NCBI RefSeq assembly: GCF_009742725.1
Contig: NZ_WPHG01000003.1
Location: 62,001 to 126,000 of the forward strand
DNA: 64,000 bases
Reading direction: 5' to 3'
From: Nitratireductor arenosus
Lineage (GTDB): Bacteria; Pseudomonadota; Alphaproteobacteria; Rhizobiales; Rhizobiaceae
The position numbers and the translations under genes were made by a program. This document shows, piece after piece, positions 6,015-47,705 of the stretch. The notes beneath the pieces are model-generated. The model ran no database searches and was not told where the DNA came from. It worked only from the letters and a program-made list of their open reading frames with translations. Numbering within the stretch: the stretch's first letter is position 1; every line of letters begins with the position of its first letter.

Positions 6015-6782
6015 TTGGATCTGCCCTTCGCCCTGCTGCCGGACGGGTTTGGCATCGCGGCGGCGGCGATATTGGTGAGTGCCAGTTTCTTCACCTCGGC
6101 GCTGACGGCCGCTTTCGGTGTCGGCGGCGGCGTGGCCATGCTCGCGCTGATGGGCCAATTCATTCCCGTCGCCGCGCTGATACCCGTCCATGGAGCGGTT
6201 CAGCTCGGCTCCAACACCGGCCGGGCCTGGCATCAGCGGGCCAATGTGTATTGGGCAATCGCCGCCCCCTTCCTGATCGGCAGCGTGATCGGGGCGGCCG
6301 GCGGCGCCTTCTTCGTCGTGCAATTGCCCGACGCGCTGCTCAAGCTCGCACTTGGCCTGTTCATCATCGTGGTCACCTGGAGCCGCATTCCCGGCATCGG
6401 CCGGCTCGGGGCCGCCGGCTTGACGCTGGGCAGCGCGGTGCTGGCTTTCGTCACCATGTTCATGGGCGCGACCGGACCGTTGCTGTCGGCCTTCTTCGCC
6501 CAGCTTTTTCCCGACGACCGCAAGGCGCTGGTGGCCACGCACGCCGCCGGCATGACGGTCCAGCACGCGCTCAAGCTCGTCGTGTTCGGGCTCGCCGGGT
6601 TCGCCTTCTGGCGCTGGCTGCCGCTGATCGTGGCGATGATCGCCTCCGGCTATCTCGGCACGGTTTACGGCACGCGGCTGCTCGAGGCCCTGCCGGAAAA
6701 GGCGTTCCGCCAGGTCTTTCGGATTGGCATCACCCTTCTGGCGCTCGACATGATACGGCGCGGAGCGACGGCGCTTTTGTAA
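6015..6782 (+). CDS. TauE/SafE family membrane anion exporter
   Basis: Integral membrane protein of the TauE/SafE (DUF81) family, whose members export sulfite, sulfoacetate or other organosulfur anions. It has 255 residues, about eight hydrophobic segments and two repeat-like halves, each opening with a Gly-rich stretch (FGVGGGVAML at about 36-45; an MGATGPLLSAFF region at about 149-160). The start is a TTG 6 bases behind the preceding stop; no ATG start suits the N-terminus. It converges on uppP. The substrate is unknown, and no sulfur-metabolism genes lie next to it. Confidence 0.82.
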   Translation: MDLPFALLPDGFGIAAAAILVSASFFTSALTAAFGVGGGVAMLALMGQFIPVAALIPVHGAVQLGSNTGRAWHQRANVYWAIAAPFLIGSVIGAAGGAFFVVQLPDALLKLALGLFIIVVTWSRIPGIGRLGAAGLTLGSAVLAFVTMFMGATGPLLSAFFAQLFPDDRKALVATHAAGMTVQHALKLVVFGLAGFAFWRWLPLIVAMIASGYLGTVYGTRLLEALPEKAFRQVFRIGITLLALDMIRRGATALL

Positions 6783-6857
6783 ACGGCCCGAGCGCAAGCG
6801 CCGTAGCCTGAAAACGGGGCCGGATCGCGCTGTCGTCGGGTTTGCCGTGCTCGCGGT

Positions 6858-7664
6858 CTATCCCCAGACAAGAAGCGCGACCAGGCCGATGGAGCCGACG
6901 ACCAGCCGCCACCAGCCGAACAGCCGGTAGCCGTGCCTGGAGACGTAGTCGAGCAGGTAGCGCACGACGATCACCGCCATAATGAAGGCCATGACGAAGC
7001 CGACCGCTATGATCGGCAGGTCGGATGCCGACAGCACGTCGCGGTTTTTGTACAGGTCGAAGACGAAGGCGCCGGCCATGGTCGGCATCGCCAGAAAGAA
7101 GGAAAACTCCGCCGCCGAGCGCTTGTCGGCGCCCATCAGCAGCGCGCCGACAATCGTCGCGCCGGAGCGCGAGGTGCCTGGGATCATCGCCAGGCACTGG
7201 AACAGGCCGATCTTGAGGCAAAGGCCGGGCGGATAGTCCATTACGTCGGAGTAGCGCGGCTCGAGGGCCAGGCGGTCGACCCAGAGCAGGATCACGCCGC
7301 CGACGATCAGCATGATGCAGATCAGCATCGGCGTCTCGAACAGCACCGTCTTGATGAACCCGTGTGCGGCCGCGCCGACGATGGCAGCCGGCAGGAAGGC
7401 GATCAGGATGCCGGCGACGAAGCGTCTTGTGCGGGCGTCGCTTGGAAAGTCGACGAGAAGCCGCAGCAGCCGGGTGAAATAGACGCTGAGAATGGCCAAT
7501 ATGGCGCCGAGCTGGATCAGCACCTCGAACGCCTTGCCGGTCGATTCGAAGCCGAGGAAATGGCCGGCGAGCAGAATATGGCCGGTGGAGGACACCGGTA
7601 TGAACTCGGTCAGCCCTTCCAGAAGGCCGAGCATCGCCGCGTCCACAATCGTTTGCTGTGCCAT
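6858..7664 (-). CDS. uppP: undecaprenyl-diphosphatase UppP (BacA)
   Basis: Inner-membrane phosphatase that dephosphorylates undecaprenyl diphosphate to recycle the lipid carrier for peptidoglycan and polysaccharide synthesis. It has 268 residues. Both diagnostic motifs are present: the (E/Q)-rich motif [15 protein letters not shown] at 15-29 and PGTSRSG at 162-168 with the catalytic Arg 166. Multiple membrane helices are evident. It converges on tauE and its start faces a 377-base region shared with the FzlA-like gene. Confidence 0.95.
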
Positions 7665-8041
7665 GAAATTCTCCGGCTCGTCTTCCGGGCGCCGCCTTGC
7701 GCGTCCTAGTGTGTGCCCCTAAGAGACTGGCCTTTGACGCGACCTTGCCGGAGGCGCGGGAGATTTAGCGCGCCGGTCTTCAAAAGGCCATAGGCCGGGG
7801 CCAGTCGTCATGCGGGTTTTGGAGCGCGACATGAGAAATGATCTCCCAGATGCGGCATCGAGAGGGCGGAAGGGGGAGGTCCCTTCCATGCCGGCGCGCT
7901 TCCGTCATGGCCAATTGTGGCCATATCCTTGCGCAACGCGTTAGCTTTCGGCTTGCGCGCAGCCTGTCCCGGACTTGCCGGCGGCAAGTTCCGAGCTCCG
8001 AACCTAAACGTCGATTGGCCCCCTAACGCACAGTTCGAATC
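7665..8041. other. 377-base divergent intergenic region uppP / FzlA-like gene
   Basis: I see no credible gene here; the short open frames lack ribosome sites and coding character. Two small hairpins are readable: GGAAGGG/CCCTTCC at 7868-7887 with a 6-base loop, and GGACTTGCC/GGCAAGTTCC at 7971-7992 with a one-base bulge. Neither is followed by a T run, so they are not convincing terminators. The region must carry promoters for both flanking genes, but I could not place -35/-10 boxes reliably. Confidence 0.5.
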
Positions 8042-8734
8042 ATGCTGACACTGTTTCATCACCCGCTGGTCGCTTCCTGCCGCTACGTGCGCCTGTCCTG
8101 CGCCGAATATGGCGAGGAACTGCAACTGATCGACGAAAAGCCGTGGCTACGGCGCCCGGAACTGCTCGAAATGAACCCCGCCGGAACCCTGCCGGTGCTG
8201 CTCGCCGAGGGCGACACGCCGATCGTTGGCGCGGGCGTGATCGCAGAATATCTCGACGAGACGCGCGGCGCGCTGATGCGTGAGCGCCGGCTCTACGGCG
8301 ACGACCCGTTCACGCGCGCCGAGGTCCGCCGCCTGGTCGACTGGTACCTGGTCAAGACCGACAACGAGGTGACCCGCCATCTGGTGCGCGAGCGCGCCTT
8401 CAAACCGCTAATGACCAGTATGCAGGGCGGCGGCTCGCCCGATTCGGCGGCGATCCGTGCCGCGCGCGCCAATGTGAAGCCGCACATGAAATACACCAAC
8501 TGGCTGGCCGGCACGCGCGACTGGCTGGCCGGCGACCGGCTGTCCTATGCGGATCTTGCCGCCGCCGCCGCGCTGTCGGTACTGGATTATCTCGGCGAGG
8601 TGCCGTGGGAGGATTATCGCGCCGCGCGCGACTGGTACGGGCGCATCAAGTCCAGACCGTCCTTCCGTCCGCTGCTCGCCGACCGCGCGCCGGGCCTGTC
8701 GCCGGTGTCGCACTACGCCGATCTGGATTTTTGA
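8042..8734 (+). CDS. glutathione S-transferase family protein, FzlA-like
   Basis: GST-fold protein of 230 residues with a thioredoxin-like N-terminal half ([25 protein letters not shown] with the cis-Pro) and an all-helical C-terminal half. The N-terminus and the acidic-aromatic tail ending YADLDF resemble FzlA, the FtsZ-binding GST homologue needed for constriction in Caulobacter and relatives. In FzlA the C-terminal tail matters for activity (recalled, not checked). It lies 2 bases before queG, an arrangement I recall from other Rhizobiales. If it is FzlA, it acts at the divisome and not as a detoxifying transferase. Confidence 0.75.
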
Positions 8735-35502: not shown

Positions 35503-37230
35503 TCAGCCGGCGACGAGCGCGATGTGGCGCTGGGCCTGGCGCAGCGCCGAGATCAGGCGGTTTTGTCCACGCACGAGCTGGGTCCTCGCGAAACCGAGCG
35601 TGGTGTCGTCGAACCGGTCGAGTTCGGCGGCAGCCGCTATCGACGGCAGCGGCGGAATGGTCAGGGCCGGATCGTGACGGAACCGGTTGACGCGGGTGAA
35701 GTTGATAGGCACCAGGATGCGCGCCAGGTCCTGGATCACCCGGTTGGCCTTGCCGGCGTCGACCGCTTTTGACGCGACACGGCCATAGAAATCCTCGAGC
35801 GCAGCCCTGAGGTCCCTGACCGCCTTCGTGGACGGTGTGAGGTCGAAACGGTCTCCGGCCTTGGCCTGGTACTCCGCCACCGTCTCGGCGAATTCCTTCG
35901 CCGTCGCGCGCCAGTCGAACGGCAGGATCTCGGCGTTGGCGTTGCGCAGCACGGCGAGCAAATAGACCTTGATGTCGCGCAGCAGGATGTCCTTGTCGGC
36001 GATCTCCAGCGTGTCGTTTTCGGTGTGCCAGGCGATGTTGCCGCCGCAGCCGCCGACCGTGTAGTACTCCTTCTCCTCGCGCAGCACGTCAGGCATGGTC
36101 GACGACAGCATCAGATAGCTGGAAATGCCGATATTGTTGAAGGAATAGTCGCCCGCCCGGTGCGGCCGCTCACCCTCGATCGCCTTGCCGGCGACCTCTT
36201 CGATCACCCCGGCCAGAAAATCCTCGGTTTCGCTCATCCGGGTCAGGTTGATGAACTCGGTGGCCCAGCGGCAGCCGGGACTGTCGCAATTGACCTGGGC
36301 GACGCAATTATCCTCCAGGTCGAGCGCGAAGGCGTCTGAAAACCAAGTCGAGCCGGCATAGCGGCCGGTCGAATGGCCCGGCCACCAGCAGATCCGCACC
36401 GAACGTTTCAACGCGCCGCGATTGGCCCACAGAACGCGCGCGATCTCCAGCATCGTCGCGTCGCCGGTGGCGTTGTCGCCCACGCCGACGTCCCAACTGT
36501 CGAGATGGCCGTGCAGGAAGACATATTTGTCGGGCTCTTCGCTGCCCTTGATGAAAACCTCCAGCAGCTTGGAGCTGTACCAGCCTTCCTCCATCTCGGC
36601 GAACAGCGTCACGCTGCCGCCTTGATCGGCGATGGCGGCCAGCTCTTCCCCGTCCGGCTTGTTGACCGCGACGGCCGGGATTGTCGGCTTGCGCGGCAGA
36701 TCGTCGAGATCTGGCGTGCCCCAGATCGTGGTGCAGATGCCCCAATGGACATCGACGCCGGGATTGATGCCGATCACGCCGATCGCGCCGATCTCCTCGA
36801 ACTGCGCGACCAGACCGGGGCTCGCGAAGCCTTCCGACATCACGATCTTACCACGCACCCGCTCGGCGAGTTCCTTGGTGGTGTCGATCTTCTGCTCGAA
36901 CATGTCGGTGATCATGGCGTTGTGTCGCGCGCCGACATAAACGAGCGTTCCCGAAAGCCCGCTGCGCGCATCGACGCAATAGGCCGGCGGCTTTGCACGG
37001 TAGCTCTTGCCGTTCGCCTCTACGCGGGCGGCGCCCGGCAGGCTAAGATAGAGGCTCGGCTCGTGCACCGTCACCTCGACGCCATGCTTGCGCAGCCGCG
37101 AGACGACCTCGTCCATGCCGCGGTTCACGTCGTCCGGGTGTTCGCGCTTGAAGCTCGCGAAGCTCTCCACCAGCCCCCAGGGCTCGTCCAGCGTCACCGC
37201 ATCGAGGATCGCGGATTCGGTCTCGTTCAT
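35503..37230 (-). CDS. M28 family peptidase-like protein with PA domain, non-canonical catalytic site
   Basis: 575 residues. A PA-like insert (about 85-210) precedes an M28 metallopeptidase fold: FLHGHLDSWDVGVGDNATG at 238-256 provides H242, D244 and D252 as metal-site residues. In canonical M28 enzymes the next strand reads G-E-E-x-G-L-x-G-S with the catalytic Glu; here it reads WWPGHSTGRYAGSTWF (about 284-299), with His-Ser in place of Glu-Glu. A 120-residue C-terminal extension follows the peptidase core. No signal peptide is visible, so it is cytosolic. A strong AAAGGAGTG site precedes ATG 37230. An operator-like palindrome at 37260 links it to the IclR gene and the racemase/ABC operon. 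Confidence 0.82.
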   Translation of the reverse strand: MNETESAILDAVTLDEPWGLVESFASFKREHPDDVNRGMDEVVSRLRKHGVEVTVHEPSLYLSLPGAARVEANGKSYRAKPPAYCVDARSGLSGTLVYVGARHNAMITDMFEQKIDTTKELAERVRGKIVMSEGFASPGLVAQFEEIGAIGVIGINPGVDVHWGICTTIWGTPDLDDLPRKPTIPAVAVNKPDGEELAAIADQGGSVTLFAEMEEGWYSSKLLEVFIKGSEEPDKYVFLHGHLDSWDVGVGDNATGDATMLEIARVLWANRGALKRSVRICWWPGHSTGRYAGSTWFSDAFALDLEDNCVAQVNCDSPGCRWATEFINLTRMSETEDFLAGVIEEVAGKAIEGERPHRAGDYSFNNIGISSYLMLSSTMPDVLREEKEYYTVGGCGGNIAWHTENDTLEIADKDILLRDIKVYLLAVLRNANAEILPFDWRATAKEFAETVAEYQAKAGDRFDLTPSTKAVRDLRAALEDFYGRVASKAVDAGKANRVIQDLARILVPINFTRVNRFRHDPALTIPPLPSIAAAAELDRFDDTTLGFARTQLVRGQNRLISALRQAQRHIALVAG

Positions 37231-37451: not shown

Positions 37452-38258
37452 TCAGGCGCTCGATTTCACCGGCGCCGGCAGATGATCGCCGGACGGATGG
37501 ATCGACAGTTTCGACGAGATCGCCGCGGCGGCGTCGCGTACCGCCTTGAGGTGGATTTCGCGCTTTTCCTCGTTGTAGCGCGCCACCGCGCCGGCGACCG
37601 AGATCGCCGCGATGACCTCGCCGTCGATGCCATGGATCGGCGCGGCGATTGAAAAGGCGCCCTCATCGAGGTCATTGAGCGCGATATTGTAACCGTTGGC
37701 GCGGATGCGTTCGAGCGTTTCGCGCAATTTCTCCCGGTCTGTGATCGTGTAGGGGGTGAACGCTTCCAGCGGTTCGGCCAGCACGGCGTCGATGACGCTG
37801 GCGTCGGCATAGGCCAGAACCAGCAGCGAGCCGCCGCCGGCGTGCAACGGGCCGTTGCGTCCGGCCTGCGCGAACAAGCGGATCGAGTGATGGCCAGGTC
37901 GGGTGGCCAGCACCAGCGAACGGTGGCCTTCGCGCACGACCAGATTGACGTTTTCCAGCGTCCGGTCGCGCAGCGCGTCCATTACCGGCCGCGCCGCGAA
38001 AAGCAGGCTGCCGTCGCGCCCGACCCGCTCGCCGAGCACGCCCACCCGATAGCCGAGCGAATAGACCGCTCGTTCGGGGTCGCGGAACACGAAACCGCGA
38101 TCCTCCAGTGTCTGCAGCAACCTGAAGACGATCGTCTTGGTCATGCCCAGCGATTTCGCCAGCGCTGTGACGCCTTGGTCGGGCTGGTCGGCCAGCGCTT
38201 CCAGGACGGAGAGCGCACGATCGACCGCGGCGATCTTGTAGTTCTTCGTGCCGTTCAT
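37452..38258 (-). CDS. IclR family transcriptional regulator
   Basis: 268 residues: an N-terminal winged helix-turn-helix (about 12-65; KSLGMTKTIVFRLLQTLEDRGFV) and a C-terminal effector-binding IclR domain (about 85-255; the GPLHAGGGS and ISVAGA elements are typical). ATG 38258 is chosen; the frame to 38438 crosses the A/T-rich divergent promoter region and has no coding look. It sits between the M28-like gene and the divergent racemase/ABC operon, both with matching operators, so it very probably controls them and responds to their substrate. Confidence 0.9.
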   Translation of the reverse strand: MNGTKNYKIAAVDRALSVLEALADQPDQGVTALAKSLGMTKTIVFRLLQTLEDRGFVFRDPERAVYSLGYRVGVLGERVGRDGSLLFAARPVMDALRDRTLENVNLVVREGHRSLVLATRPGHHSIRLFAQAGRNGPLHAGGGSLLVLAYADASVIDAVLAEPLEAFTPYTITDREKLRETLERIRANGYNIALNDLDEGAFSIAAPIHGIDGEVIAAISVAGAVARYNEEKREIHLKAVRDAAAAISSKLSIHPSGDHLPAPVKSSA

Positions 38259-38383: not shown

Positions 38384-39139
38384 ATGCGAATTGCCTATGT
38401 CGTGCCGGGCCCGATGTCGAAGGGACCGATGGGAGCAAGCGAGATGCGCCGGCGTGAGGCGCTTCTCAACGGCTGGGCCTTCGCCGGGACCGAGGTCGTC
38501 GTCGTCGATGTGCCCGACGGTCCGGCCTCCATTGAATCGGCCTATGAAGAGGCGATGTCGGTGCCGGCCACGGTCGAGCGCATCATGGCTTGCCAGCGTG
38601 ACGGTTTCGACGCCGCCATCATCGGCTGTTTCGGCGATCCGGGCCTGGAGGCCGCGCGTGAGCTGGCTACCATTCCGGTCATCGGACCGTGCGAAGCCTC
38701 GCTGCTGCTTGCCGCCGGCCTCGGCCACAAATTCAGCGTGCTGACCATCTTCGATAGCCTGATCGCGGGCCAGGAGATGCTCGCCGTTCGCGCTGGCGTG
38801 CGCGACAAGCTGGCATCGGTGCGTGCGACCAACATTCCCGTGCTCGATCTGATGAAAGACCCCGGCGCGACGAAAAAACGCCTTGTCGACGTGGCGCGCG
38901 CCTGCGTGGAGGAGGACCGGGCTGACGCCTTCTTGTTCGGCTGCATGACCATGTCCTTCCTCGACATGGGCGACGAGGTTTCAGCTGCGGTCGGCGCTCC
39001 GGCCGTCAACGCCGGACGAGCCGCGCTCAAACATGCCGAAATGCTGGTTTCAATGGGGCTTAGCCATTCCAAGAAAGCCTATCCCCTGCCGCCGAAAATG
39101 GCGGCCGGACAGTCCTTCGAGACCTTGCGGGTCGCCTGA
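38384..39139 (+). CDS. Asp/Glu/hydantoin racemase family protein
   Basis: Cofactor-independent racemase of 251 residues. The two catalytic cysteines of the family are C82 (IIGCFGDPGL) and C187 (FGCMTMSF). The GCFGDPGL wording is that of hydantoin racemases (HyuE) and related allantoin racemases more than of aspartate racemases. It is the first gene of the operon controlled by the IclR operator; with hydantoinase genes HyuB/HyuA downstream, racemisation of a 5-substituted hydantoin or related compound is likely. Confidence 0.85.
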   Translation: MRIAYVVPGPMSKGPMGASEMRRREALLNGWAFAGTEVVVVDVPDGPASIESAYEEAMSVPATVERIMACQRDGFDAAIIGCFGDPGLEAARELATIPVIGPCEASLLLAAGLGHKFSVLTIFDSLIAGQEMLAVRAGVRDKLASVRATNIPVLDLMKDPGATKKRLVDVARACVEEDRADAFLFGCMTMSFLDMGDEVSAAVGAPAVNAGRAALKHAEMLVSMGLSHSKKAYPLPPKMAAGQSFETLRVA

Positions 39140-39187
39140 GGCGTTCCGCCAATAATGATAACGATCCCGTTCCAGAGGAGAAAAGCG

Positions 39188-40843
39188 ATGAAGTTGATCC
39201 ACAAGGCGGCGCTGGCGACTGCGCTTGCCACGCTGTTTGCATCGGCCCCGGCGCTGGCGGGCGACCCGATCCGCACCATAGACCTGTTCACCCGTCCGCA
39301 GGCCGCGCAGCCGCAGGAATTCCAGTCCGTCCAGCTGATCGCGCAGGAATGGCGCAAGCTGGGGCTCGACGTCAATGTACGGGTCATGCCGTGGGAGCAG
39401 ATGGCCGATATCGTCTGGTATCAGCGCGACAAGTGGGACGTGACCGCCTGGCAGATGGTCGGCCGCCCCGAGCGCTCCGATCCGGACGAGATCGTCTACA
39501 ATCTGTTCCATTCCTCGACCGCCGAGAAAGGCTATAATTTCATCGGCTACAGCAATCCCGAGTTCGACGCTGTCGCCGAGGCGCAACGCGTGGAGATCGA
39601 CGAGGCCAAGCGCAAGCAACTGGTCTACAAGGCGCAGGAAATCCTCGCCGCCGACCAGCCCAACATGATGCTGGTGCATCCCAAGTCGACCTTCGCCTAT
39701 GACAAGACGGTGTGGAAGCCGGACTCGGTCGTCAACCAGAGCGGCATCGGCATCCGCAACACCTGGACCTTTATGTCGCTGGAGCCGCTGGGCGATCAGC
39801 GCGACATCATCGTCAATTCCGGCGACAACGTGCAGGCCGTCAACCCGCTCTACATTTCGGGCGGCGTCGACAGCTGGGTAACCGAGCTGCTCTACGACCG
39901 GCTGGCGCGCGTCGGGCCGGACGGCCTGCCCAAGCCGTGGGCGGCCGAAAGCTACGAGTGGAAAGACGACAAGACGATCGAGGTCAAGCTGCGCGCCGGC
40001 ATGACCTGGCATGACGGCAAGCCGGTAACGGTCGAGGACGTCAAGTTCTCCTTCGATGCCGTCGTCAGCGGCGAGGCGCCGATGTACAAGCCGTTCGCCA
40101 CCAATGTCGCCGGCATCGACATCGTCGACGACCGCACCTTGGTCTTCCATCTCAACAATCCCGCCGCGTCCTTTGTCACCTCGAGCCTGGCCAAGATCAA
40201 CCTGATTCCCAAACATGTGTGGGAGCCGGTGCTTGAGGACCTCAAGACCAAGGAGGAAAACGCCGAGAGCTATCAGGAAGACACCCCGATCGGCTCGGGC
40301 CCCTTCAGGTTCGAGCGCTGGCTGACCAACGAGGAGATCGTTCTGTCGGCCAACAAGGATCACTTCAACGCGCCGAAGGCCGACCGCTGGATCCTGCGCA
40401 TCGTTCCCAATGTCGAGGCCGCGCTCGGTATGCTGCGCTCCGGCGAGATCAACTTCATTGGCGAGTTCTCCGGTGATCCGCAGGTGTTGATCGACGCCGC
40501 CGAGGCCGATGGCGACCTGAACGTGGTGTCGACCGTCGATATCGGCTTCCGCTATCTCGCCTTCAACGAGCGGCGCGCGCCCTTCAACGACGCGGCGTTC
40601 CGCCGCGCTCTGTCGGCCGCGGTCGACCGGCGGCTGATCGTCAAGGCGGCCTTTAAGGGCTTCGCCGAAGCCTCGAACTCGGTCGTATCGCCGGCGCTCG
40701 AATTCTGGCACGACGCCGCCGTGGTCGAGAATTTCAAGGCGGGCCAGGACGTGGCCAAGAAAATCCTCGAAGACGCCGGCTACACGCTCGAGGGCGACCG
40801 CTTGCACTATCCGGGCGACCAGAAGGAAGAATACGCCCAGTAG
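39188..40843 (+). CDS. ABC transporter substrate-binding protein, family 5, apparently circularly permuted
   Basis: Periplasmic dipeptide/oligopeptide/nickel-type receptor, 551 residues with a signal peptide (cleavage after Pro-Ala-Leu-Ala, residue 24). The order of segments is unusual. Residues about 28-195 match what is normally the C-terminal end of SBP_bac_5 proteins (QLIAQEWRKLGLDVNVRVM, then NLFHSS, GYSNPEFDA, AQEILAADQP). Residues about 206-545 match the normal N-terminal and middle part (LYDRLARVGPDG, WHDGKPVTVEDVKFSFDAV at 274-292, then the FNDAAFRRALSAAVDR helix at 466-481), ending at AGYTLEGDRLHYP where normal proteins continue. Length is that of one full domain, so this is a permutation and not a fusion. 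It feeds the permease/ATPase genes downstream. Confidence 0.9.
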   Translation: MKLIHKAALATALATLFASAPALAGDPIRTIDLFTRPQAAQPQEFQSVQLIAQEWRKLGLDVNVRVMPWEQMADIVWYQRDKWDVTAWQMVGRPERSDPDEIVYNLFHSSTAEKGYNFIGYSNPEFDAVAEAQRVEIDEAKRKQLVYKAQEILAADQPNMMLVHPKSTFAYDKTVWKPDSVVNQSGIGIRNTWTFMSLEPLGDQRDIIVNSGDNVQAVNPLYISGGVDSWVTELLYDRLARVGPDGLPKPWAAESYEWKDDKTIEVKLRAGMTWHDGKPVTVEDVKFSFDAVVSGEAPMYKPFATNVAGIDIVDDRTLVFHLNNPAASFVTSSLAKINLIPKHVWEPVLEDLKTKEENAESYQEDTPIGSGPFRFERWLTNEEIVLSANKDHFNAPKADRWILRIVPNVEAALGMLRSGEINFIGEFSGDPQVLIDAAEADGDLNVVSTVDIGFRYLAFNERRAPFNDAAFRRALSAAVDRRLIVKAAFKGFAEASNSVVSPALEFWHDAAVVENFKAGQDVAKKILEDAGYTLEGDRLHYPGDQKEEYAQ

Positions 40844-40927: not shown

Positions 40928-41905
40928 ATGTTTCAGCTAAAGGCGGCGGTCGGCCGGATCCTGCAGCTCGGTCTCGTGCTGTGGGCGGTCGTGACAATCT
41001 TGTTCCTGATGTTCCGCCTGATGCCCGGCAATCCGATGGCGGCCTATATCGATCCAACCTTCACCGAAGAGCAGCAGCTCGCTCTGATGGCCCAGTTCGG
41101 CCTCGACAAGCCTTTGTGGGAGCAATATTTCATCTATCTCGCCAATCTGGTGCAGGGCGAACTCGGCCAGAGTTTCCGCTACCGCGAGCCGGTCGCCGAA
41201 CGCATCCTGGCCCTGTTGCCCAACACGCTCATCCTCACCTTCACCTCGCTGATCATCGCCTATGTGTTTGGGGTTTTGGCCGGCGCCTATCTCGCCTGGC
41301 GGCGCGGCAGCGCGGTCGAACAGGCAGCGATCCCGGTCGTCCTGACGACGCGCGCCATGCCCGAATTCTGGCTCGGCATGGTTCTTCTGGCGATCTTTTC
41401 GTTCTGGCTCGGCTGGTTTCCCGCCGGTGGCACGCGCTCGGCCGGCACCGATCATGGCAACCTTCTGGGACTTTACACCTCCGCCGATTTCCTGTCGCAT
41501 CTGGCCCTGCCGGCGCTGACGCTGGCCATCTACAGTCAGGGCCTGCCGCTGCTTTTGATGCGCTCCAATATGCTCGACGTGATGAAGGAGGACTTCGTCA
41601 CCATGGCGCGCATCAAGGGCCTGTCTAACTGGACCGTGGTTGTGCGCCATGCCGCGCGCAACGCGCTGTTGCCGGTGATGACCTCCTTTGCGATCGCCGT
41701 CGGTTACCAGCTTCAGGGCAATGTCGTGGTCGAATCGGTGTTTTCCTGGCCGGGGCTGGGGCGCGAACTGGTCAATGCGGTGTCGGCCTCGGACTACCCG
41801 CTCGCCCAGGGTGCGTTCTTGATGATCGCGATCGTGGTCATCCTGATGAATTTGATTGCCGACCTGCTCTATGCGCTGCTTGATCCGAGGGTGACGCATG
41901 TCTGA
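40928..41905 (+). CDS. ABC transporter permease (DppB type)
   Basis: Inner-membrane subunit of a dipeptide/nickel-type importer, 325 residues, with about six membrane helices and the coupling-helix EAA-like segment MARIKGLSNWTVVVRHAARNALLPV (about 227-251). The signature RLMPGNP near residue 30 is typical of DppB. It overlaps the next permease gene by 8 bases. Confidence 0.92.
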   Translation: MFQLKAAVGRILQLGLVLWAVVTILFLMFRLMPGNPMAAYIDPTFTEEQQLALMAQFGLDKPLWEQYFIYLANLVQGELGQSFRYREPVAERILALLPNTLILTFTSLIIAYVFGVLAGAYLAWRRGSAVEQAAIPVVLTTRAMPEFWLGMVLLAIFSFWLGWFPAGGTRSAGTDHGNLLGLYTSADFLSHLALPALTLAIYSQGLPLLLMRSNMLDVMKEDFVTMARIKGLSNWTVVVRHAARNALLPVMTSFAIAVGYQLQGNVVVESVFSWPGLGRELVNAVSASDYPLAQGAFLMIAIVVILMNLIADLLYALLDPRVTHV

Positions 41906-42790
41906 AACCGTCATCGCCCGCCCCGCCCTCGTCTCGCGCCTGTTCGGCGCGCTGCGCTTGCCCATCAACGATCCGTTCGCCGTCGCCGGGCTTGTGATCT
42001 ACGCCGTTTTCGTGTTGACCGCGATCTTCGCCGACCAGATCGCGCCCTACGATCCGACCGAGATCCTCTACACCGAGGAGTTCGATCTCGCCGCCGATCT
42101 GAGACCCGGCGAGCAGGGCTTCGTGCTTGGCACCACCAGTCTCGGCCGGGACATCTTTTCGCAGATCGTCCACGGCAGCCGCTCGGCGCTGCTGATCGGC
42201 GTCACGGCGGCCTTCATGGTGGCGCTGATCGGCTCGATCGTCGGCCTCGTCTCGGGCTACTTCGGCGGCTGGATCGACGCGCTTTTGATGCGGCTGGCCG
42301 ACATCGCCTTCGGTATTCCGTTCCTGCCCTTCGTCATCGTTCTGGCGGCCTTTCTGGAGCCGTCGATCTGGAACGTGGTTTTCGCCATGGCGCTGGTCTT
42401 GTGGCGTGACACCGGCCGCGTCATTCGCAGCCAGGTTCTGACCCTGCGCTCGCGCGGTTATGTCGAGGCGGCGCGCGTGGCCGGTTCCTCCAACCTCAAG
42501 ATCATTACGCGCCACATCGCGCCCAACATCCTGCCGCTCTCCTTCCTCTACGGCTCGATCGCTATCGGCTGGGCGATCCTGACCGAAGCCTCGATCAGCT
42601 TTCTCGGCTTCGGCGATCCGAGCCAAATCAGCTGGGGCTACATGCTGCAGGACGCCTTCGCCAGCCAGGCGCTCGCCAAGCAGGCCTATTACTGGTTCGT
42701 GCCGCCGGGCATCTGCATCATCCTTGTCGTCAGCGCGGGCTTCTTCATCACCCGCGGTTACGAAAACATCCTGTTTCCGAAGTTGGGCAG

Positions 42791-42794
<4 letters not shown>
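41898..42794 (+). CDS. ABC transporter permease (DppC type)
   Basis: Second permease subunit, 298 residues, with the DppC N-terminal helix (about 30-50), the GTTSLGRDIFSQIVHGSRSAL element (about 75-95) and the EAA loop YVEAARVAGSSNLKIITRHIAPN (about 191-213). It overlaps the neighbours on both sides (8 and 4 bases), so the transporter genes are translationally coupled. Confidence 0.92.
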
Positions 42795-43791
<997 letters not shown>

Positions 43792-43807
<16 letters not shown>

Positions 43808-44832
43808 CGACGGCCGGCAAGCACAGGCATGAGGTGTTCGTGTCCGCGCGCGATGCGCAGCTCCATTTTCGCGCCGGCGGCGCGTTGGCCGCGATGCGCG
43901 GCAAGTCCCGCCTGATCAAGGCCGTCGACGGCGTCAGCTTCGACATTTGCCGCGGCGAAAGCGTTGGCCTGCTCGGCGAATCCGGCTGCGGCAAGACCTC
44001 CATGGGCCGGATGCTGCTCAAGCTGGAGGAGGCGACCGGCGGCGCCGTCACCTTCGACGGGGCCGATCTCAACACGTTGCGCGGCGAAGCGCTCAGAGCC
44101 TTCCGCACCCGCGCGCAACTGATCTTCCAGAACCCGTTCGACGCGGTCAATCCGCGCTTCACCATTCGCGCCACGCTGGCCGAACCGCTGGAGAACGCGG
44201 GCGTGCCCCCGGCCGAGCGCGAACAGCGCATCATCGCCGCGTTGGAACTGGTGCGCCTGCCCAATCCGGCCGAATTCCTCGACCGCCATCCACATCAGCT
44301 TTCCGGCGGCCAGCTCCAGCGCGTGGTGATGGCGCGCGCACTCATTCTCCAGCCGGATTTCGTGGTGGCCGACGAGCCGGTCTCGATGCTTGACGTGTCG
44401 GTGCGCGCCGGCGTTTTGAACGTGTTTCGCGACGTGCGCGACCGGCTGAACCTGACGGCGATCTATATCAGTCACGACCTGGCGCTGGTGCGTTATGTCT
44501 GCGAGCGCACCATCGTCATGTATCTCGGCCGCATCATGGAGGACGGTCCGACAGAGGACATCGTCCGCGAGCCGCTGCATCCCTATACCAGGGCGCTGGT
44601 CGCCGCCGTGCCGGTGCCCCATCCCGACCAGGACCACGCGCCATTGCCGATCGGCCGCGGCGCTCCCGACCCGCTCAACCCGCCATCGGGTTGCGTGTTC
44701 CGCGATCGCTGCCCGAAGGCGCACGCACGTTGCGCCGCCGAAATCCCGGTGCCGCGCCAGGTCGGCACGCGCCGCGTCGCGTGTCATCTCTATGACGAGG
44801 CCGGGGCGGCCGCGCCGGGGAAGACGGCCTGA
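43792..44832 (+). CDS. ABC transporter ATP-binding protein (DppF type)
   Basis: Second ATPase, 346 residues from ATG 43792 or 342 from ATG 43804, which overlaps the preceding stop as ATGA. Walker A GESGCGKTS is at about 62-70, signature LSGGQLQRV at about 168-176, Walker B FVVADEPVSMLD at about 189-200, and a C-terminal CVFRDRCPKAHARC cysteine cluster. Together with DppD it energises import of the ligand captured by the permuted binding protein. Confidence 0.93.
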
Positions 44833-45827
44833 TGCGCGCCGCCTTCTACACCCGCACCGGCCCGGCCGCCGACGTGCTCGAAATCGGCGAACGCCCCGAT
44901 CCGGTCGCCGGACCCGGCGAGGTGTTGGTGCGCGTGCGCGCTTCCGGCATCAACCCGGCCGACGTCAAGCGCCGCGCCGGCTGGCGCGGCATGGCGATGG
45001 AGCATCCGCTCGTCATCCCCCATACCGACGGCGCCGGCGAGATCGTCGATGTCGGGCAGGGCGTCGATCGGGTGCGGATCGGCGAACGGGTGTGGCTGTG
45101 GAACGCGCAGGGCGGGTATGGCGAGGCCGGTCGCCCCTTCGGCAGCGCCGCCGAGCTGATCGCGCTTCCCGCCGCGCAGGCGGTCCACCTGCCCGATGAA
45201 TTCGACTTTGCGGCCGGCGCCTGTCTCGGCGTGCCGGCGATGACGGCGCATCGCGCCGTCCATGCCGACGGGCCGGTCGCGGGCCTGACGATCCTCGTCA
45301 ATGGGGCCGCCGGCGCCGTCGGCCACATTGCGGTGCAGATCGCCGTCGCCGGCGGCGCCAACGTCATCGGCACGGCCGGCAGCCCAGCGGCGGCGGCGCA
45401 CGCCCGCGCCGCCGGCGCGGCTGAAGTGATCGATCGCCGTCGCGAGGATGTCGCCGCGCGGGTGATGGAACTGACCGGCGGGACCGGCGTCGACCGGGTG
45501 GTGGAGGTCGATTTCGGCGCCAACCACCACACCGACATCGCCGTGCTGAAGGCGAACGGCACGATTGCGTCTTATTCGTCGACGAGCGCGCCGGAGCCGA
45601 TGCTGCCCTACTACGCCTTTGCCAACAAGGGCGCCAATCTGCGCTTCATCCAGGGGTTCGCCATTCCCACGGCCGCGCGCCGGGCCGGCGAACGGCGCCT
45701 GGCCGAACTCGCGGCGGCCGGCCGGCTGACGGTCGCGATCGCCGAGACCTATCCGCTCACCGAAATCGCCGCCGCCCACGCGCATGTCGAAAAAGGCGCC
45801 ATCGGCAATGTCGTCGTCACGATCTGA
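44832..45827 (+). CDS. zinc-independent alcohol dehydrogenase / quinone reductase (MDR) family
   Basis: Medium-chain reductase of 331 residues. A GroES-like N-terminal half (VRVRASGINPADVKRR at about 35-50) precedes a Rossmann half with GAAGAVGHIAVQIA at about 158-171. The four-cysteine structural zinc loop is absent, as in quinone oxidoreductases (QOR). The start overlaps the ATPase stop by one base. The reaction is unknown; it may act on an unsaturated carbonyl intermediate of the pathway or on a quinone. Confidence 0.87.
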   Translation: MRAAFYTRTGPAADVLEIGERPDPVAGPGEVLVRVRASGINPADVKRRAGWRGMAMEHPLVIPHTDGAGEIVDVGQGVDRVRIGERVWLWNAQGGYGEAGRPFGSAAELIALPAAQAVHLPDEFDFAAGACLGVPAMTAHRAVHADGPVAGLTILVNGAAGAVGHIAVQIAVAGGANVIGTAGSPAAAAHARAAGAAEVIDRRREDVAARVMELTGGTGVDRVVEVDFGANHHTDIAVLKANGTIASYSSTSAPEPMLPYYAFANKGANLRFIQGFAIPTAARRAGERRLAELAAAGRLTVAIAETYPLTEIAAAHAHVEKGAIGNVVVTI

Positions 45828-45875: not shown

Positions 45876-47705
45876 ATGATGCTTCAATCCGTTGAACAGC
45901 ACAAGCCGGGCGCGGAGGCCGGCCGGACTTGCGATCCGGTGTCGCTCGAGATTATCCGCGGCGCCATCGCAGCGGCCCAGTCGGAGATGGAGGCGCTGCT
46001 CGAACGCACCGCGATCTCGGCCTTCATCCGCGAGAAGAAGGATTTTTATACCGCCTTGTTCGATGCCGATGGCGTCATGGCGGTCGGCTCGATGGTGCCG
46101 ATCTTCGGCGACATGACGGGCCCCGTGCTGGAGGCATTTCCCGCCGACACGATGAAGCCCGGCGATCTCTACTGGTACAATGATTGCTACGGCTCGCGCG
46201 GCGCGGTTTCGCATTCCAACGATCAGGTGCTGCTGGCGCCGGTGTTCCAAGACGGCAGGCGTTGCGCCTTCGTGATGAGCTGGGCGCATTTTGCCGATAT
46301 CGGCGGCATCCGCCCGGGCTCGATCAGCCCCGACGCGACCGAAATCTTCCAGGAAGGCATCATCATCCCCGTCACCAAGCTGATCGACGGTGGCGTGACC
46401 AACGAGGCCACGCTGTCGATCTTCCACCGCAATTCGCGGTTCCCCGAGCAGAGCGTCGGCGACATGCGCGCCCTGATGGCGAGTGTGGAGCTGGGTGTCA
46501 GACGTGTTGCCGAAATCGTCGACAGGTTCAGTCCGGACGTGTTTTCCGACGCGCTCGCCCAGTTGCTGGCCCGCACCCGGCGCCTGGTGCGCGAGAGGCT
46601 CGCCGAGACCTTCGATTATGGCACCCACCGCTTCACCGACGCCATTGACGGCGACGGCCACGGCAACGGACCGTTCAAGATCCGGTTCGCCCTGACCCGG
46701 GAAAAGGGCGGGGACGGCGAGGATCGTTTCGTCTTCGATGCCGGCGAAACCGACGACCAGGCGCCGGGTCCGGTGAACTACATCATGAATCGCGGCGTGC
46801 CCGGCATGGCGCTCGGGCTTTATTATCTCGGCGGCGATGCGGGCCAGGTGTGCAATGCGGGCGGGCCGGACGCGATCGACGAGGTGCGCCTGCGCGAGGG
46901 CTCGCTTCTGATGCCGCGCTTTCCGGCCCCGCTCGGCATGCGCGGCCTGACCACGATGCGCGTCCTGTCGGCCATGAACGGTCTCGTCAATGTCGCCGGC
47001 GGCGGCGCGCCGGCCGCCAATTCGGCCTATGTGATTTCCATCATGCGCGGCAATTTCCGCACCGAGGCCGGCCAGTTGGAGCGTTTTCTGCTCGCCGACG
47101 GTATCGGTGTCGGCTATGGCGCCAGACCCAACGCCGACGGCATCGACGCCGTCTATTTCGTCGCCCAGGAGAACTATCCCGTCGAGTTCCTCGAACTCGG
47201 CTATCCGGTGCGGCTCCTGCGCTACGGCGTCGTGCCCGATTCCGGCGGACCCGGCCGCTACCGAGGCGGCTGTGGAATCGTGCGCGAATACGAGATCCTC
47301 GCCGAGGATGCCGTGCTCGCCGTGCGCATCGACAGCGTCAAGAACCCGCCCTGGGGCATCGATGGCGGGATGGGCGGTGGCGTCGGACGCGCCACGGTCA
47401 ATCCCGGCACCGAGCGCGAGCGGGTTCTTGCGCCGTTGTCGGACGGCAACCGTCTGGTGCGCGGCGACATTCTGCGCATGGAGACCGGCGGCGGCGGCGG
47501 CCACGGTCACCCCTTCGACCGGCCGGCCGAGCGTGTGCTGGACGACGTGCTCGGCGGCTATGTCGGCGTCGACGCCGCGCGCGACAACTATGGCGTCGTC
47601 ATCGCCGATGGCGAGATCGACAGGCAGGCAACGACCGCCCTGCGCAAGAAAAGGCCGGCCACGCGCCGCTTCCACCGTCAGGAGTATGTCGATGCCCTCG
47701 TCTGA
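45876..47705 (+). CDS. hydantoinase B / oxoprolinase family protein (HyuB)
   Basis: Subunit of an ATP-dependent cyclic-amide hydrolase (N-methylhydantoinase, 5-oxoprolinase or acetone/acetophenone carboxylase type), 609 residues. Family marks are CDPVSLEIIRGAIAAAQSEME near the start and YWYNDCYGSRGAVSHSNDQVLLAPVF at about 95-120, where metal and substrate residues lie; GGGGHGHPFDRPAERVLDDV is near the C-terminus (about 540). GAGGAAGG precedes ATG 45876. It overlaps HyuA by 14 bases. Confidence 0.92.
   Translation: MMLQSVEQHKPGAEAGRTCDPVSLEIIRGAIAAAQSEMEALLERTAISAFIREKKDFYTALFDADGVMAVGSMVPIFGDMTGPVLEAFPADTMKPGDLYWYNDCYGSRGAVSHSNDQVLLAPVFQDGRRCAFVMSWAHFADIGGIRPGSISPDATEIFQEGIIIPVTKLIDGGVTNEATLSIFHRNSRFPEQSVGDMRALMASVELGVRRVAEIVDRFSPDVFSDALAQLLARTRRLVRERLAETFDYGTHRFTDAIDGDGHGNGPFKIRFALTREKGGDGEDRFVFDAGETDDQAPGPVNYIMNRGVPGMALGLYYLGGDAGQVCNAGGPDAIDEVRLREGSLLMPRFPAPLGMRGLTTMRVLSAMNGLVNVAGGGAPAANSAYVISIMRGNFRTEAGQLERFLLADGIGVGYGARPNADGIDAVYFVAQENYPVEFLELGYPVRLLRYGVVPDSGGPGRYRGGCGIVREYEILAEDAVLAVRIDSVKNPPWGIDGGMGGGVGRATVNPGTERERVLAPLSDGNRLVRGDILRMETGGGGGHGHPFDRPAERVLDDVLGGYVGVDAARDNYGVVIADGEIDRQATTALRKKRPATRRFHRQEYVDALV

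Follow-up and report, generated by a model that had tools for sequence, protein, structure and literature searches.

A family-5 substrate-binding protein of Nitratireductor arenosus that is very likely a natural circular permutant, and its permuted relatives in bacteria and archaea

Can the chain of a family-5 (cluster C, SBP_bac_5) substrate-binding protein (SBP) be circularly permuted in nature and still serve as the receptor of an ABC importer? The question is raised by a gene of Nitratireductor arenosus (39188-40843, + strand), for which an earlier note had claimed exactly such a permutation. The gene lies in what we call the window, i.e. the whole stretch of 64,000 nucleotides that was analysed (contig NZ_WPHG01000003.1, positions 62,001-126,000, forward strand); protein coordinates are given within the window. 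We consider it very likely (probability about 0.93) that the product of this gene is a naturally occurring circular permutant of a family-5 SBP and serves as receptor for the dpp-type ABC importer whose genes follow directly downstream, where the fold is predicted by a model and the stimulation of the transporter and the binding of a ligand are inferred.

Order of the segments and predicted fold

The open reading frame encodes a protein of 551 residues. An alternative in-frame ATG is present upstream at 39155; the start at 39188 is preceded by a Shine-Dalgarno-like AGAGGAG, and a signal peptide of normal appearance (judged by eye) begins there. The protein covers the Pfam profile PF00496 (SBP_bac_5) nearly completely, yet in two stretches of which the order is swapped: residues 248-538 match profile positions 2-284 and residues 36-112 match positions 293-366 of 368. 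When the pieces were tested apart, the N-terminal 202 residues matched only the end of the profile and the C-terminal 349 residues only its start and middle, as the earlier note had predicted. With a score of 242.8 bits against a curated cut-off of 32.4, membership of family 5 by descent is met. The same swap was found with the NCBIfam DppA model (residues 231-532 on 56-368, and the N-terminal piece 30-166 on 373-507) and, as a sequence match, with AppA in the PDB (1xoc; residues 205-537 on 22-350 and residues 50-171 on 379-495). A collinear match across the whole protein was absent among the listed Pfam, NCBIfam and PDB matches.

A profile of 31 permuted relatives gave a comparable picture, in that residues 200-540 (approximately) fell on the first parts of solved chains and that no whole-length collinear match was present in the 60 of 102 solved-chain matches that were inspected. 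A profile of the moved segment matched the C-terminal parts of 50 distinct solved sequences, the best being 8efz (342-486, E 1.4e-14). As an unbiased check of the order, the mature chain was rotated to every possible starting residue and each version was compared with E. coli DppA. In linear form it scored 251 (local) and 238 (semi-global), versus 332 for the best rotation in both, and the twelve top rotations of each scan start within residues 165-205. The source genome holds 18 family-5 loci in total, with 19 matches to PF00496: one in each of 17 other loci and two, swapped, in the permuted locus. The protein thus fails the test for a canonical cluster C member (collinear order, termini in domain I), the order being swapped in both the profile and the PDB matches. 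By descent it is a family-5 binding protein and by topology a permuted variant rather than a canonical member; the swapped order is shown by sequence.

From the new N-terminus onwards, the protein consists of a signal peptide (residues 1-24, ending ALA/G; 39188-39259, +; cleavage site by eye, pLDDT 47-48 over residues 1-20), the canonical C-terminal segment (residues 26-195, DppA ~372-535; 39263-39772, +; supported by Pfam, NCBIfam DppA, the moved-segment profile and the DppA alignment), a linker from the old C-terminus to the old N-terminus (residues 196-204; 39773-39799, +; DppA 535 corresponds to residue 195 and DppA 29 to residue 205), the canonical N-terminal segment (residues 205-533, DppA ~29-369; 39800-40786, +; supported by Pfam, the structure match to 1dpp and the DppA alignment) and a new C-terminal tail that, judged from the sequence and the DppA alignment, is mostly without DppA counterpart (residues 534-551; 40787-40840, +; stop codon 40841-40843). 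In the DppA alignment itself, DppA 29 to ~369 correspond to residues 205-533 and DppA ~372-535 to residues 29-195. The cut in the canonical chain therefore lies in the loop that connects the AKxLLxxAGY helix to the strand after it (profile ~285-292, DppA ~369-372), which in this protein follows AKKILEDAGY, and the old C- and N-termini have been joined by about nine residues, with a signal peptide on the new N-terminus; all of this is shown by sequence.

In canonical members the two termini are close neighbours within domain I (PMC10924461), which should make joining the old ends easy. According to published lobe boundaries, lobe 2 is a single continuous middle block that is inserted into lobe 1 (YejA 287-539, PMC10924461; domain III, 297-582, of the Ami-system receptor of PMC11192437, which by context we take to be AliD). 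From these boundaries we infer that the cut at DppA ~370 falls inside lobe 2 and that the permuted protein has lobe 1 as its continuous insert, with both of its ends on lobe 2. A lipobox-like motif was found at the new N-terminus of 10 of 74 permuted proteins, eight of them haloarchaeal, and the lipid anchor of those members should by the same inference sit on lobe 2.

An AlphaFold2 model built with 31 window and locus sequences had a mean pLDDT of 91.8 and a pTM of 0.87. Its top solved match in Foldseek was AppA (E 2.8e-19), and VIA aligned residues 199-549 to AppA 18-363 (Z 25.5, rmsd 5.3, 338 aligned), residues 197-547 to OppA 1-362 (Z 22.8, rmsd 5.1, 328 aligned) and residues 205-542 to DppA (1dpp) 1-346 (Z 22.3, rmsd 5.0, 320 aligned). 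In the 50 structural matches that were inspected it was mainly residues 199-549 (in a few cases starting from 177-179) that aligned, and they did so to the start of solved family-5 proteins. The moved segment had block-mean pLDDT values of 85-98 within the whole model and a pLDDT of 63 when modelled alone, as would be the case for a segment that relies on the remainder of its lobe. With this fragment alone Foldseek returned nothing at E<=0.001 (best 2.0e-3, a family-5 protein), and VIA returned weak family-5 matches (Z 4.2-5.6) that were tied with unrelated folds; the family-5 ones fall on the C-terminal part, for instance of NikA (1uiv, 337-497) and of 8vdx (368-529). Retention of the two-lobed family-5 fold, with the additional domain typical of cluster C, is thus a model prediction, resting on the strong collinear match of residues 199-549 and the weak match of the fragment, the rest being supplied by sequence.

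Most of what the earlier note had claimed about the protein was confirmed. The permutation of an SBP_bac_5 protein at this locus held against Pfam, NCBIfam, PDB and the DppA rotation scan, the motifs it had quoted were all found, in the given order, and the signal peptide on the new N-terminus was found as well. Neither of the two results that it had named as refutations, a profile match collinear over the whole protein and a normal-order topology of the predicted structure, was found in the listed matches and in the model, respectively.

Permuted relatives and their trees

Full-length permuted relatives were found in 16 of 297 genomes of the same family (E<=1e-80). In the GTDB genome-contig collection we identified 43 permuted loci, ranging from Rhizobiaceae to Chloroflexota, Limnochordia, Halanaerobiales, Armatimonadota and SAR324 MAGs. 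Two of these (L065 and L066) are broken, being split between reading frames in draft assemblies, with which both sequencing error and real decay are compatible. Plasmid records added 36 matches at E<=1e-35; in 35 of these the match extends over 80% or more of the query, and 22 of the 36 are haloarchaeal (counted from names). Matches spanning the full profile (a single match from profile position <=60 to >=500, genomes counted from tables) were present in at least 13 of 385 genomes of the class of the window organism, at least 20 of 249 of the phylum of the Limnochordia MAG and at least 20 of 43 of the phylum of the Armatimonadota MAG (in both cases including group B, described below) and at least 6 of 52 of the phylum of the SAR324 MAG. 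At E<=1e-60, relatives were found in 19 of 59 genomes of the class of the Halanaerobiales MAG and 2 of 201 of the phylum of the Chloroflexota MAG. The genome searches mostly scored only the best few candidates per genome, and the counts are therefore lower bounds. In an even sample of the phylum of the window organism only the source genome itself (1 of 349) was found at E<=1e-45, indicating that the arrangement is patchy.

The open reading frames of the fetched loci were classified with two canonical-order profiles (core and tail), counting as distinct those with distinct last 200 residues. This yielded 119 distinct permuted ORFs (including group B and two of the T2 type described below) and 34 of normal order, the permuted ones being hosted by alphaproteobacteria, Chloroflexota, Bacillota, Armatimonadota, SAR324 and haloarchaea. 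Because these loci had been selected for their similarity to the window protein, the ratio of 119 to 34 is uninformative on the family at large, and recruitment by likeness to the permuted order will mostly have missed permutations at other sites. The spread of full-length relatives supports the conclusion that the permuted arrangement is old, widespread and patchy. The suggestion of the earlier note that it might be one rearranged allele fixed with its transporter is consequently too narrow; the search for homologues with the same order that it had proposed led to many bacteria and archaea and to further permuted groups.

The permuted group that contains the window protein will be referred to as group A. 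All trees are quick searches with SH-aLRT support and without bootstrap, and near-identical rows were thinned in both the first and the wider set. For the first tree, with 43 permuted (rotated) and 30 normal-order proteins, L066, L065, L110, the second ORF of L109 and the partial L032 had been dropped as broken or poorly matched. A single branch separated the 43 permuted rows from the others, whether the tree was built from all segments (SH-aLRT 98), from the core only, which spans no junction (96), or from the moved segment only (98). In the wider tree (35 group A, 6 group B, 4 T2 and 28 normal rows, with the normal-order L103, L104 and L107-L110 left out) a single branch again set group A apart when all segments (90) or only the core (94) were used, whereas the tail by itself, which has few columns, requires two changes. 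The quick trees hence support group A as one clade, with the tail alone failing in the wider sample. As a side observation, two very divergent group A members from alphaproteobacteria (L176 and L177) are lengthened at both ends, by a long extension ahead of the moved segment at the N-terminus and by a long tail at the C-terminus.

Group B (L146-149, L162-165, L167, L170-175, L178 and L179) came from distant full-length matches in the phyla of the Limnochordia and Armatimonadota MAGs; only six rows are in the trees and the remaining loci were assigned by likeness of their ends. Its members share their cut loop with the window protein, with the readable ORF ends stopping a few residues past AGY/AGF, and in L163 Pfam positions 290-365 precede 1-279. 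Group B joins L085, a normal-order protein from the genome of the SAR324 MAG (SH-aLRT 96). Forcing A and B together lowered the log-likelihood by 91 units for the concatenated segments (AU p 0.0017), and by 42 units (p 0.084) and 21 units (p 0.187) for the core and the tail alone, i.e. in the same direction but not significantly. Group B is therefore likely to be a separate permutation, albeit with significance for the concatenated segments only.

Group T2 (L180, at 6490-8199 on the + strand of that locus, L181, L182 and L183) has a signal peptide followed by a third segment order, which in L180 runs from Pfam 136-285 via 289-363 to 4-146. The chain is opened at about position 140, which by inference from published boundaries should be in lobe 1. 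Homologues of both permeases and both ATPases follow the gene in L180, L181 and L182 (some permease matches in L180 and L182 being in pieces), and L183 is without adjacent transporter set. Proteins with the T2 order were found in 24 of 348 genomes of one sampled phylum (E<=1e-70). Same-strand neighbouring T2 matches, apparently tandem duplicates, were observed at G1580:C70:1572-5399, G1581:C101:8445-12110 and G1627:C125:3916-8149; duplicates of this kind can supply the material for a permutation. A clade of A and T2 was not rejected (p 0.78) and the held tree was 14.3 units better than the free one, and T2 may accordingly be a re-cut relative of A. That two cut sites exist in family 5 is shown; that at least two permutation events took place is likely, a single origin with later re-cutting not being excluded.

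Neighbouring transporter genes and putative ligand

Directly downstream of the permuted gene, all on the + strand, are genes for a permease of the DppB/OppB type (40928-41905; PF00528 5.3e-43, PF19300), a permease of the DppC/OppC type (41898-42794; PF00528 3.6e-23, PF12911 OppC_N) and two ABC ATPases with an oligo_HPY C-terminal region (both PF00005 and PF08352), of the DppD (42791-43807) and DppF type (43792-44832). An export signal (by eye), two permeases and two oligo_HPY ATPases are thus present, as tested for a receptor of a Dpp/Opp-type importer. To count conserved neighbours we used the 36 of 43 genome-contig loci that are longer than 13 kb, scoring a homologue anywhere in the locus. 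Homologues of both permeases and both ATPases were found in all 36. Other associations were with an Asp/Glu/hydantoin racemase family gene just upstream (38384-39139, +; PF01177 3.4e-34; 23 of 36 loci), an IclR-family regulator (37452-38258, -; PF01614 2e-35; 31 of 36), an M28-family peptidase-like gene (35503-37230, -; PF04389 1.5e-15; 32 of 36), a zinc-binding dehydrogenase (quinone-oxidoreductase-like; 44832-45827, +; PF00107, PF08240 and PF13602; 30 of 36) and a hydantoinase B/oxoprolinase family gene (45876-47705, +; PF02538 3.8e-126; 20 of 36).

In the annotated plasmid regions the permuted gene adjoins ABC transporter genes in 11 of 11 cases, and a gene for an M20, M28 or M81 peptidase, a creatininase or a hydantoinase is nearby in six. 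Some variation was observed on haloarchaeal replicons. Two plasmid loci (L127 and L129) have two permeases and a single annotated ATPase gene of ~2.1 kb, as if two had been fused, followed by a 'hemolysin family' gene, and three haloarchaeal permuted loci (L126, L128 and L090) adjoin genes for TldD-type peptidases, with aspartoacylase or M20/M28/M81 genes near. We found no change peculiar to permuted systems in the scoop stretch of the partner permeases. E41/R42 of E. coli DppB are missing in the partners of the permuted proteins; the aligned permeases of nearly all other loci lack them too, and a permutation-specific scoop motif was therefore rejected.

A two-arginine motif, GRPERSDPDE (residues 92-101; 39461-39490, +), lies in the presumed ligand region and aligns around DppA D436, the residue that together with R383 makes salt bridges to the dipeptide (PMC12136057). 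D436 itself aligns with residue 95, inside the GRPER stretch. R96 is present in 39 and R93 in 33 of the 43 permuted rows, and each in at most 2 of 31 normal-order rows. In the Ami-system receptor an aspartate, by our own equivalence the counterpart of D436, binds the amino end of the peptide (PMC11192437). The two conserved arginines at the position of D436, together with the racemase, hydantoinase B and peptidase-like genes that travel with the locus, lead us to the tentative idea that the ligand is a small anionic amide-type compound (e.g. an N-carbamoyl or N-acyl amino acid or a hydantoin product) and not a free dipeptide. This inference is weak, is without binding or transport data, is rather less likely than not to hold, and is limited to group A members near the window protein. 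The motif is not universal and hence cannot define a single ligand for all.

Origin of the permutation and relation to known systems

Permutations usually arise by tandem duplication, after which the outer part is lost on either side. In the mechanism that we propose, which is inferred, a family-5 gene would have been duplicated in tandem and both outer parts lost, leaving the permuted order; the new termini would open in the loop of lobe 2 and the old ends would be sealed by the linker of about nine residues. Since the fold is retained in the model, the flytrap cleft and the docking face should be preserved as well, and the mechanism would be unchanged. In the members that are lipoproteins the lipid anchor would hang on lobe 2 with both chain ends. 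Two-domain tandem intermediates were not found among the long ORFs of L004/L099 and L084, which (looking at these ORFs alone) show the matches of one binding-protein domain only. The origin that the earlier note had put forward, duplication with loss of both ends, thus remains an inference, and its suggestion that the moved termini alter ligand release remains speculation, without data.

Of the alternatives, a single permutation behind A, B and T2, with later re-cutting or loss scattering the tree, survives best and remains possible. In its favour, A and B share one cut loop, their union is not rejected by the core or the tail alone, and that of A and T2 is not rejected and even improves the tree; against it, the concatenated segments do reject A and B as one group and B groups with the normal-order L085. 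A second alternative, a fusion of pieces from two paralogues (by fission and fusion or by recombination) instead of duplication and end loss of one gene, seems unlikely. The end product would look identical, paralogues are common (as the 18 family-5 loci of the source genome illustrate) and the tail-only tree of the wider sample splits group A. However, the core and the moved segment each unite the 43 permuted rows, although the event is old and these trees are consequently silent on the source gene of each piece. An assembly error, chimeric contig or degraded gene, with an order that is an accident of one genome, is all but excluded, since despite the broken drafts L065 and L066 intact full-length copies occur in many genomes and on complete plasmids, 119 distinct ORFs are permuted and the surroundings are conserved.

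The natural permutant described above remains our preferred reading. A bolder reading, to which as one joint claim we give only a slight preference, is that family 5 has been permuted repeatedly in nature (A being old and present in bacteria and haloarchaea, B being cut in the same loop and nested among normal-order proteins, and T2 being cut elsewhere, probably in lobe 1), with each a working receptor. The loop in lobe 2 would then be a natural hot spot at which new termini arise, and many extracellular receptors would carry their lipid anchor on the lobe opposite to that of the textbook case.

Nutrient receptors of family 5 are widely used, and the profiles for them assume a fixed chain order; annotation by profile or by order-bound structure comparison fails to flag permuted proteins. 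A branch common to archaea and several bacterial phyla implies that the receptor tolerates changes in the position of its termini, in the order of its synthesis and in its membrane anchor. The natural matched sets (normal, cut in lobe 2 and cut in lobe 1) could be used to probe the effects of termini and anchoring on flytrap motion and docking, and the permuted receptors are ready scaffolds for sensors.

The earlier note knew of no description of such a permutation for the family, and this held within the literature searched: we found no description of a natural family-5 permutation in open-access full text, where subscription journals and preprints were outside the scope and absence is unproven. 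'Just how versatile are domains?' uses the words, yet its relevant sections contain no report of a natural permutation in family 5. OpuAC versus ProX, a possible precedent for permutation among binding proteins, was not found as such in the relevant sections of the paper that was checked.

Compared with the canonical family-5 proteins DppA, OppA and AppA (cluster C, PF00496), the window protein shows homology along nearly all of the mature chain, a similar size, a like predicted fold and the same type of adjoining transporter genes. It differs in that the canonical C-terminal third comes first and in that its termini are by inference on lobe 2, whereas the canonical ones are in domain I of lobe 1. 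The nearest parallel is Tp0684 (TpMglB-2) of Treponema pallidum, a natural circular permutant that binds glucose and changes conformation, for which the authors proposed 'Type Ic / Cluster Bc' (PMC4990184). Both are naturally permuted SBPs whose chain order recurs in relatives from other bacteria (for Tp0684, PMC4990184), but Tp0684 is a Type I, cluster B, glucose-binding protein with an unrelated cut, found in spirochaetes and mainly Gram-positive bacteria, and its permutation is an event independent of the one in family 5. The window protein fails the test for cluster Bc, PF00496 being the sole Pfam family that matches the whole protein at E<=1. In engineered circular permutants of periplasmic binding proteins new termini have likewise been tried, but these were made in the laboratory, unlike the natural and old permutation described here. 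Within the open-access literature searched, a permuted SBP was thus known already in cluster B, and what is new here is natural circular permutation in family 5.
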